Of a DNA stretch of 64,000 bases, positions 8,512 through 61,505 are shown piece by piece. Under the pieces are notes generated by a model. That model ran no database searches. It was not told the DNA's origin and saw only the letters and a list, made by a program, of their open reading frames with translations. A program made the position numbers and the translations under genes. Position 1 is the first letter of the stretch. The number at the start of each line of letters is the position of its first letter. This DNA comes from Candidatus Uhrbacteria bacterium (GTDB taxonomy: Bacteria > Patescibacteriota > Patescibacteriia > 2-12-FULL-60-25): assembly GCA_018499965.2 (NCBI GenBank), contig JAHBAS020000006.1:31559-95558 (forward strand). The letters run 5' to 3'.

Positions 8512-8565
8512 GTGTTGTAACCTTCTCATTTACCAATCATCTCAAGAGTGTCATCATAAAAATCT

Positions 8566-8961
8566 ATGAAAGGATTTATTGCAAATATTGAGCAGCTCTC
8601 GCTTGAGAATACGGATTTTCGACACGTGCTCTATACGGCGAAGAATAGTCAGCTCGTGTTGATGTGTCTTCAGCCGAATGAAGACATTGGTGAAGAGGTT
8701 CACCATCTGGATCAGTTTTTGCGCATTGAGGCTGGAACCGGCAAAGCGATCCTTGACGGCGTAGAGCATGAAATCGCCGATGGGTCTGCGATCGTCGTTC
8801 CTGCCGGGGCGCGCCATAACATCATCAATACGTCTCCCGACGCGCCATTAAAGCTCTATACCGTGTATTCGCCGCCAGAGCATAAAGATGGAATTATTCG
8901 CTCAACAAAGGCAGAAGCTGAGGCAACGGAAGAACATTTTGACGGAGTAACCACAGAATAG
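8566..8961 (+). CDS. Cupin-domain protein
   Basis: EEVHHLDQFLRIEAGTGKAILDG...IVVPAGARHNIINT cupin motifs. Confidence 0.8.
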   Translation: MKGFIANIEQLSLENTDFRHVLYTAKNSQLVLMCLQPNEDIGEEVHHLDQFLRIEAGTGKAILDGVEHEIADGSAIVVPAGARHNIINTSPDAPLKLYTVYSPPEHKDGIIRSTKAEAEATEEHFDGVTTE

Positions 8962-9001
8962 GGTAGACGCTCCTATTGGATTCAAGTATCATGGGCCACA
9001 T

Positions 9002-18106: not shown

Positions 18107-18272
18107 GCGGGAAAAGCGTATCAAAGTATGTCGGGTTGTGAAATAGGGAATTAATTAGCGATTTACGAAATCCATGGGCAGTTAAAGTAACGATGAATAA
18201 TCGAGCTTATTCAAAAATACTGAAAACGAAAGATAAAGTTTTGATAAAGTTTTAGATATCGAGGCTTGTTAG

Positions 18273-18678
18273 ATGCGGTTATCGCATGTACTGTTGATTA
18301 ATGATATTCCGATGAATCCTCTGGTTGCACATACTCGTCTCTCATCAAAAAAGATAGCGGTTATACTGGCCGTTTCTTTCTTCGTTTTTCTTCTTTTTAT
18401 TTTTCATGAAAGAGTCTCAACGCTTGTCATTGGGATAGTCTGTGATATTTTTTTTAAAACCTCCCGAGCGAACATTTTGTCTAGATGCGTCTGATAGTTA
18501 TAGGTGTATAACAGATCGAGCTATTCAAAATAAAGATGCCGATATTTGTTACTATCTCGATGCTGGGAATAGTGATCGTTGTATTGACGAAGTCGTATTG
18601 ACCGGAAAGGACGGATCTATTTGTAAGAATATTCGAAATTTTTGGACAAAAAAATATTGTTTAGAGAAATACAAATAG
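18273..18678 (+). pseudogene. Membrane protein with Cys-rich repeat region, split by a frame change at a T8 tract
   Basis: ORF 18273-18494 (TM) and ORF 18442-18678 (DRCI/C-rich) overlap at T8 (18448-18455). Removing one T gives one continuous frame VCDIFLKPPERTFCLDASDSYRC. Confidence 0.55.
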
Positions 18679-18716
18679 TTAAAAAAGCTGATTTTTCTAT
18701 TTGAGGAAGATGCTAT

Positions 18717-23642: not shown

Positions 23643-23844
23643 AGGAGTTGAGGTTGGAGGTCAGGATTGGAGATCGGATATCACCAATCTTTTCGGTGGT
23701 CTGACCTTCAGTTTGTTGCGGGAGTGTAAGCGAAATCGGAGTTTTTGTCAAAGGGATTGGACGCCTAGGCTGCTATGTAACGAGGAAGCCCTACAGAACG
23801 CGTGTTCTGTAGGGCTTTTGCGGGGAGAATGGCCATAAAATGGC

Positions 23845-24057
23845 CTAGGGATGGTTTTCCGTTCGGCAATCCGGACAGTGAAAGTCTTGATCAAGGTGCT
23901 TGAGGCGCGTCGCTCGTTGACATGCGATGCATCGTTGCGCTTTTCCGCTAATCAAGAGAAATAATTCATCTTCCACATCGTTTGGTTCAAGCCACGGGCT
24001 CTTGGGTTTCGGATCCGGCAAATCATTGCTTGTTGGCGTTCTCGAACAGAATCCCAT
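23845..24057 (-). CDS. Small zinc-ribbon-like protein
   Basis: 70 aa with CIAC...CPDC. Confidence 0.5.
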   Translation of the reverse strand: MGFCSRTPTSNDLPDPKPKSPWLEPNDVEDELFLLISGKAQRCIACQRATRLKHLDQDFHCPDCRTENHP

Positions 24058-24203
24058 GAGGATGCTCCTTTCATGAATGCGGTGCGAACGGTTGAATCTT
24101 TACGCCTTCAGGAAGAAAAGGCAAGAGTCAAGAAGAGCCCGGAACGCGTAGGAGTGCGTCCGGGCTCGACTGAAAAGAAGCGTATCGAAAAAAGAAGAAG
24201 GAT

Positions 24204-54213: not shown

Positions 54214-54268
54214 AGCGCTCGTGAGCTTTGTGATTCTCATTGATAGGATCACGAAGCTCACGAGCGCT
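54214..54268 (-). terminator. Long imperfect hairpin downstream of tRNA-Ser
   Basis: AGCGCTCGTGAGCTT/AAGCTCACGAGCGCT plus GTGAT/ATCAC; followed on minus by TTTTCATTT. Confidence 0.6.
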
Positions 54269-55516: not shown

Positions 55517-55729
55517 TCATGGGCATGATAGCGCATTTGGGATGATCGTTCTTGTTTCGGAGGGCATCTTGACGGGGCGTGCCGTGATATGTTGAAATAC
55601 AGGCTCTCTCGAACCTTCGATTTCTCCGAACGCAAAACCCATCACAATCGATACAACCACAATGAGGATGGGGGCACGCATTCGGGAATAAAAAACGATA
55701 AGGCTTCGCACTAGCCGGTCGTTCCCCAC
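55517..55729 (-). CDS. Small single-TM protein coupled to the DUF362 gene
   Basis: MRAPILIVVVSIVMGFAFGEIEGSREP...; its stop and the DUF362 start form TGATATG. Confidence 0.4.
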   Translation of the reverse strand: MGNDRLVRSLIVFYSRMRAPILIVVVSIVMGFAFGEIEGSREPVFQHITARPVKMPSETRTIIPNALSCP

Positions 55730-55739
55730 GAACTACGGG

Positions 55740-55981
55740 GCAAAGAATGAGCACGTTCGCGTTCATCAGCTGTACTCAATGACCATCCCTCGAGTGAATC
55801 GCACCAGGTCTATGGAGTCTGTCTCGATGCCGTTCGTTCTCTTCGTTCGCGGCGCTTATCAGCTCCCCTAGCTGATTTTCCTCGCGAACAGCGAAAGCAG
55901 TCCTTTCCCACAGGAAACTGCCTAGCACGTGCCTAATCTCCCATCCTCCGTTGGCTCACGCCTCGGAGGATGTTTCTTTTT
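55740..55981 (+). ncRNA. Putative structured RNA 1 (5' end approximate) ending in a terminator
   Basis: Stem 55845-55889 (7 bp, 6x6 internal loop, 7 bp), hairpin 55897-55921, terminator CATCCTCCG...CGGAGGATG-TTTCTTTTT; no credible ORF. Confidence 0.45.
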
Positions 55982-55991
55982 GAAAGCTGAC

Positions 55992-56021
55992 TTGACATTT
56001 TTTGGCCTGTATGGCTAGATA
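55992..56021 (+). promoter_or_regulatory. Sigma70-type promoter of putative RNA 2
   Basis: TTGACA-18-TAGATA, same TTGACATTTT style as 48692 and 58096. Confidence 0.55.
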
Positions 56022-56027
56022 GAGAGA

Positions 56028-56436
56028 GTTCGTTAGATTTCCCCTCAAATGCAGCTCCGCGGACGGTGTTCATGGCGTATCGCGTTGAGTGGCATAAGAG
56101 GAAACGGTGGGCTTGCACGAAGCCTGACCGATAGAATGGTGAACGATATGAGGGATTCGGCCCCAGCAAAGATGGAGATTGAGTGAAGTCGACGTGTGAA
56201 CTGTCGCGTCAGACCTCTTCGTCTTCGTGCGTAGAAAATGCTGCGTGATCGCGTGTCCTCTTGCGTGTCGTTCATGGTTCCTGTGGATGTTCAATGGGTT
56301 GCCCTCCTCCCCCCCCACCTCGCCTATTGTTCATTCATGGAAGGTATCTACGGGTAGGTGAATTAGCGTTCATCCTATTCGTAGATATCACGTGCCTCTT
56401 CGGAGGGACCTTTATCCAAGGTCCCTCTTCTTTTTT
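56028..56436 (+). ncRNA. Putative structured RNA 2, approximately 410 nt
   Basis: Promoter upstream; 20-bp hairpin with three G-U pairs at 56343-56389; terminator at 56403; no credible ORF. Confidence 0.45.
56403..56436 (+). terminator. Strong Rho-independent terminator
   Basis: GAGGGACCTT-TATCC-AAGGTCCCTC-TTCTTTTTTT. Confidence 0.8.
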
Positions 56437-56473
56437 TCTCGTTTGTCATTTTGTGCTATGCTAGCTTATAGAT

Positions 56474-56983
56474 ATGGCACGTTACGCTCCGGATTTCGAA
56501 GATCAGCTCATCGACGCGCAAGACGCGTTCGTTTGGGAAACGCCGGAACATGAACGTCATGATCGGGGATCGAAATGGTATGTTGTTATGGGCGCCGTTG
56601 CCTTGCTTTTCGTGGCTTATGCCATTTGGACCACGAATTACCTATTTGCCCTTATCGTTCTCTTGCTCGCAATTACGATTATTCTGATCGGGAACGAGAA
56701 GCCTCGTAAAATCCTCGTGCAAGTTGGGCATCATGGATTGGTTTTGGATGGGCATTTCATTTCCTACGAAGATCTTGAGCATTTTGCGATCATCTATCAG
56801 CCCCCGATGATCAAGACGCTCTACCTGTATCCAAAGAACAGTGTGCTTCCGCGATATCGAATTTATCTTGGTGATCAAGATCCTGTGAGTGTTCGCGATC
56901 ATCTCCGCCGATACGTTGCGGAAAACTTGGAAATGCGAGATGAACACGCCTCCGATATCATCGGACGATTGTTAAGGTTGTAG
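56474..56983 (+). CDS. Two-TM conserved-looking membrane protein
   Basis: WYVVMGAVALLFVAYAIWTTNYLFALIVLLLAITIILIG followed by soluble domain. Confidence 0.7.
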   Translation: MARYAPDFEDQLIDAQDAFVWETPEHERHDRGSKWYVVMGAVALLFVAYAIWTTNYLFALIVLLLAITIILIGNEKPRKILVQVGHHGLVLDGHFISYEDLEHFAIIYQPPMIKTLYLYPKNSVLPRYRIYLGDQDPVSVRDHLRRYVAENLEMRDEHASDIIGRLLRL

Positions 56984-60954: not shown

Positions 60955-60957
60955 AGA

Positions 60958-61308
60958 TTAGGTGTTTTGGAGTTGGTGGATGGCATGTTCGAGGTTTTGC
61001 CACTGTTCTTTGCAGCTCGTGAGGAACCGTTCGCCTTTCGCGGTGAGTGAATAGTACTTTCGCGGCGGCCCGGCTTTGCTTTCTTCCCAGTCGTACGTCA
61101 GGAGGTCGGCATTCTTTAATCGGGAGAGCAGGGGATAGATCGTGCCTTCCACAACCGTGAGCTGCACGTCTTTGAGGCTCTCGATGATTTCGTTCGCGTA
61201 GGTCTTGCGCTTCGCGATCACAAGCAGAATGGCGAATTCAAGCACGCCTTTGCGCATTTGCGCCTCGGCATTGTCGAGCGTTTTTTGCAGGTGGTTTTCT
61301 GCGGACAT
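60958..61308 (-). CDS. PadR-family transcriptional regulator
   Basis: RKGVLEFAILLVIAKRKTYANEIIESLKDVQLTVVEGTIYPLLSRLKNADLLTYDWEESKAGPPRKYYSLTAKGE. Earlier ORF start precludes the inferred TSS. Confidence 0.92.
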   Translation of the reverse strand: MSAENHLQKTLDNAEAQMRKGVLEFAILLVIAKRKTYANEIIESLKDVQLTVVEGTIYPLLSRLKNADLLTYDWEESKAGPPRKYYSLTAKGERFLTSCKEQWQNLEHAIHQLQNT

Positions 61309-61323
61309 AGGCATGATTGGGCT

Positions 61324-61358
61324 ACTATAATACATGCTACCTTTTTATGCAAGGTAGC
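61324..61358 (-). promoter_or_regulatory. Promoter with overlapping operator of the padR-pspC operon
   Basis: Minus: TTGCAT-17-TATAGT; inverted repeat GCTACCTT-N7-AAGGTAGC (61336-61358). Confidence 0.7.
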
Positions 61359-61505
61359 GGAGAGATTTTATAATATAGAGCATTTCACAGAAAATACATG
61401 TTCGCGTCGTGTCCATCCTGATTTTTCTGTGTATATCTTCTTTTTTCGCTTAACGGTGCGGGCTTGCGTGGGAAATTTGTGAATGGTACTGACTGTATGG
61501 TTATT

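Follow-up and report, generated by a model that had tools for sequence, protein, structure and literature searches.

Comparison with known RNA systems

In Bacillus subtilis, the small RNAs FsrA and RoxS bind their targets through C-rich single-stranded regions, and the C-rich regions of Firmicutes sRNAs bind mRNA sites that include Shine-Dalgarno sequences (PMC8216469). The locus described here lies in a 64,000-nt stretch of a Candidatus Uhrbacteria genome, hereafter the window. Like FsrA, RoxS/RsaE and CsfG, it would be a stand-alone intergenic RNA, with an intrinsic terminator and a predicted C-rich single-stranded region (PMC8216469). It differs from these RNAs in having no sequence similarity (Rfam negative) and in belonging to a host that uses few Shine-Dalgarno motifs.

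Two other groups of RNA elements invite comparison. The candidate resembles RNase P RNA (RF00010) and tmRNA (RF00023) in its size of ∼400 nt, its intergenic position and its structure, which is confined to the 3' part; unlike them, it has neither an Rfam match nor family-wide conservation. As with attenuators and riboswitch leaders, its terminator lies shortly upstream of a same-strand gene, but a promoter-like element of the gene's own follows the terminator, no antiterminator is predicted, and the orthologues lack a leader. To our knowledge, few regulatory RNAs have been described in bacteria of this kind, and a literature search on regulatory RNAs in patescibacteria returned nothing specific.

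The best single reading of the locus, adopted tentatively and with slightly less than even confidence, is a stand-alone, species-restricted small RNA. A 21-pair hairpin that is not expected by chance speaks for an RNA gene. Speaking against one are the absence of a relative in the searched genomes, a chance-level promoter, a 5' region of 310 nt that folds no better than shuffles and the presence of other equally long intergenic hairpins.

An orphan terminator closes a non-coding region

No intergenic gap of the window is larger than the one that houses the candidate unit. Comparison with orthologues places the true start of the upstream DUF362 gene probably at ∼55515, which sets the gap at 958 bp; the median gap is ∼100 bp. 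The DUF362 gene is encoded on the opposite strand, where it has its own promoter-like element, and the downstream gene, encoding a membrane protein, is on the same (+) strand as the unit. The unit sits behind a second orphan terminator, and the features of the region are as follows.

∼55942..55980, + strand: upstream orphan terminator closing putative RNA 1, with a 9-pair outer stem followed by TTTCTTTTT
55992..56021, + strand: weak promoter-like site TTGACA-18-TAGATA, with a perfect -35 and a -10 matching at 3/6 positions
56022..56277, + strand: 5' part of the putative transcript, with no ORF and no unusual structure
56278..56342, + strand: stem with a C-rich loop of 22 nt (around CCCTCCTCCCCCCCCACCTC), predicted to be unpaired with a probability of ∼0.9-1.0
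56343..56389, + strand: 21-pair hairpin with four G-U pairs, one bulge and the loop TAGC
56402..56436, + strand: intrinsic terminator, an 11-pair stem (56402-56428) of -18 kcal/mol with a U-rich tail
56452..56476, + strand: start codon of the membrane-protein gene, preceded by its own extended -10 promoter-like element (TGCTATGCT), a TGnTATnnT-like form that recurs in family orthologues

The terminator that the first-pass annotation had placed at the end of the unit was recovered, with its 11-pair stem and U-rich tail. Judged from the gene arrangement, it cannot serve a known gene: the one upstream is encoded on the other strand, and the one downstream begins only past the terminator, with its own promoter-like element.

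The region also appears to be non-coding. All frames of the gap were listed, and frames were scored against the codon usage of 46 genes from the window. Those above 50 codons that were scored all came out negative, on both strands, while almost all window genes were positive, down to a 62-aa HTH gene; the + strand also holds two shorter frames, 30 and 39 codons in length, with scores near zero. A Pfam search of the gap frames gave nothing above threshold. The earlier statement that no plausible + strand ORF is present therefore holds, and the - strand is likewise devoid of one. With neither a coding signal nor a Pfam match above threshold, a hidden or decayed gene was rejected. A + strand transcript that is non-coding and ends at 56436 is a well-supported prediction, based on the orphan terminator, the missing coding signal and the strand-asymmetric wobble hairpin described below.

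The main rival to the small RNA reading is relic intergenic DNA, a rearrangement junction of decayed genes, leftover terminators and a palindrome from which any transcript would be functionless. We regard this origin as rather unlikely. The frames tested retain no residual protein similarity, which argues against it, and the two intact terminators and the intact 21-pair stem suggest maintenance.

Structure is concentrated in the 3' part

The first-pass annotation had described a transcription unit of ∼410 nt opening with a TTGACA-18-TAGATA promoter. This site is located as claimed, with the -35 hexamer TTGACA at 55992-55997, an 18-nt spacer and the -10 hexamer TAGATA at 56016-56021. It is weak evidence with a chance-level score, since the -10 matches at 3/6 positions and a score at least as high is reached at ∼250 sites on the + strand of the window. 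It also lacks the TGnTATnnT-like form seen in family orthologues of the downstream gene.

Folding gave a similarly uneven picture. The z-score of the whole ∼410-nt unit (z = -5.6) is due to the 3' hairpins only: the segment 56027-56335 folded alone reaches z = -1.5, a fold matched by 8 of 100 shuffles, and the fragment 56335-56440 reaches z = -7.8. Folding better than chance is thus limited to the last ∼165 nt, and the first ∼310 nt fold no better than shuffles, as relic DNA would have it. Of the proposed ∼410-nt unit, the orphan terminator, the missing coding signal and the wobble hairpin stand, whereas the first 310 nt are not unusually structured and the promoter does not rise above chance. 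The case for a long structured RNA therefore lies in the 3' hairpins, and the folds do not support a structured RNA of ∼410 nt that begins at the TTGACA site.

The hairpin at 56343-56389 is one of the strong elements of this 3' part. It was annotated earlier with 20 pairs and three G-U pairs; its position and single bulged base are correct, but the stem has 21 pairs including four G-U pairs, closed by a UAGC loop in the RNA. In 40 Markov sequences of window length, the expectation per 64 kb per strand is 0.05 for stems of at least 20 pairs with at most one bulge, and 0.025 for at least 21 pairs. The predicted energy is -27.2 kcal/mol on the + strand vs -16.5 kcal/mol on the - strand, and all four imperfect stem positions are wobble pairs in the + strand RNA. 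Both observations count for the small RNA reading. The second also counts against relic DNA, as random decay would not favour imperfections that all wobble in one strand. In support of relic DNA, long palindromes also occur in other gaps of the window, with equally long intergenic hairpins at ∼54237 and ∼57083.

A predicted accessible C-rich loop

An accessible C-rich region, a feature of FsrA/RoxS-type sRNAs, is predicted in the candidate. The stem that bears the loop (around CCCUCCUCCCCCCCCACCUC) adjoins the long hairpin, which is followed by the terminator, and the loop is almost certainly unpaired according to the folding model.

Under the small RNA reading, the putative RNA would be transcribed on the + strand and end at the terminator at 56402-56436. 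Its functional core would probably be the last ∼165 nt, in which the stem with the C-rich loop is followed by the 21-pair hairpin and the terminator stem. The C-rich loop would most likely act in trans by pairing with G-rich mRNA sites, at ribosome-binding sites or elsewhere, and the long hairpin may serve as a stability or RNase III element. A general anti-Shine-Dalgarno role would offer few targets, a minority of mRNAs, since Shine-Dalgarno-like motifs precede only 12 of the 47 window genes. Duplex energies between the C-rich loop and mRNAs were computed for window genes only and without a null model, and are not counted as target evidence.

A bolder version, to which we would assign very little probability, is that the locus encodes a C-rich regulatory RNA of a new class, in a lineage with small genomes and scant use of Shine-Dalgarno sequences. 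This RNA would act on the few mRNAs that retain G-rich ribosome-binding sites, and it would form a tandem arrangement with another orphan RNA to which it is unrelated. The locus would give access to RNA regulation in a streamlined genome, should it be transcribed. The general importance is limited: the finding is of a fairly ordinary kind, a single candidate specific to one species where orphan intergenic regions are numerous.

Relation to the downstream gene

The position of the terminator raises two explanations that involve the membrane-protein gene. The first is a cis-acting leader or attenuator, starting near 56028, whose terminator, ∼38 nt 5' of the start codon, would be conditionally bypassed. 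The shared strand and the short distance to the gene are consistent with this, and by sequence inspection the GGAGGG of the terminator 5' arm and the CCCUCC of the C-rich loop are complementary. When the terminator 3' arm was removed, the 5' arm did not pair with the C-rich loop in the predicted fold, and no antiterminator was predicted. The gene also appears to have its own promoter-like element directly 5' of its start codon, as its orthologues do. This TGnTATnnT-like element is recurrent in the membrane-protein orthologues of the family (among orthologues L005-L022), and an extended -10 element a few bases 5' of the start codon across the family suggests leaderless transcripts. None of the inspected orthologues has such a leader, and no Rfam leader or riboswitch family matches. 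A leader function is thus improbable.

The second explanation is an insulator, in which the hairpin and terminator would merely stop + strand read-through from upstream into the membrane-protein gene. The next gene begins shortly afterwards and carries its own promoter-like element, which would suit this role, as would the additional terminator on the same strand at 55942-55980. Transcription from upstream is, however, already stopped by that earlier terminator, so that another one makes sense only with a promoter between the two, and no U tract follows the long hairpin. We consider an insulator highly improbable.

Search for known families and relatives

The locus was scanned with the Rfam 15 covariance models, the check suggested in the first-pass annotation. 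No match was obtained at the gathering threshold, so no known family recognises the unit, and relaxing the cut-off to E = 10 brought up only two sub-threshold matches, both on the - strand and taken as chance. Identity with RNase P RNA or tmRNA was rejected, as the genome's own copies of RF00010 and RF00023 score above the family cut-off on other contigs (C23, C1). 6S RNA (RF00013) had no match at the locus or anywhere in the genome. The unit is single-copy in its genome, which rules out a repeated element.

BLAST searches of the unit gave no convincing relative among 56 relatives or among 381 genomes drawn from the class, only short chance matches in 40 other family genomes, and no match among phages and plasmids. 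As a control, RNase P RNA, which is of similar length, was found in 37 of the 40 family genomes at E <= 0.001. Isolated short matches were taken as chance: 27 nt within a P-type ATPase-like coding sequence (G014), one within an ABC-transporter-like coding sequence (G026) and one in G121. Among viral contigs, one hairpin arm had no match, and the 16-mer matches of the other arm lacked the partner arm. A covariance model spanning 56278-56396, with 119 positions and two stems, found only itself in the family genomes and the window; built from a single sequence, it would miss strongly diverged relatives.

Gene order was equally uninformative. Orthologues of the membrane-protein gene were present in 30 of 34 genomes and those of the DUF362 gene in 8 of 41; the sequences upstream of both were unrelated where inspected. 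Contig scans using both neighbour genes found nothing, and synteny via either gene gave no aligned homologue of the unit in the genomes searched. Relic DNA gains from these results: the region is kept by neither neighbour gene in relatives, and its sequence is not conserved, whereas RNase P RNA, similar in size, turns up in 38 of 41 genomes when its own is counted. The small RNA reading accommodates the same results as restriction to this species.

Other features of the window

The claim that the unit directly follows another putative RNA agrees with our analysis, in that putative RNA 1 does end in a terminator at ∼55942-55980. This region (window 55700-55980) has no ORF and a strong terminator, with z = -3.2 over 55700-55982; it had no Rfam match, and no relative was found. 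Putative RNA 1 and the studied unit have TAnCACGTGCCT in common just 5' of their terminators. Paralogy of the two was rejected, as their local alignment is no better than that of shuffles despite this common sequence.

In this 94% complete genome, the small bacterial SRP RNA (RF00169) had no match, whereas 11 of 14 control genomes match; the SRP RNA of this genome may be divergent, of the large type or located in an assembly gap. The Rfam and fold scans also covered other intergenic gaps of 490-592 bp, at 8512-9001, 18125-18716, 23643-24203 and 60955-61463. The strongest hairpin of the window (54214-54267; 25 pairs, -40.9 kcal/mol) lies just downstream of a tRNA-Ser gene on the - strand.
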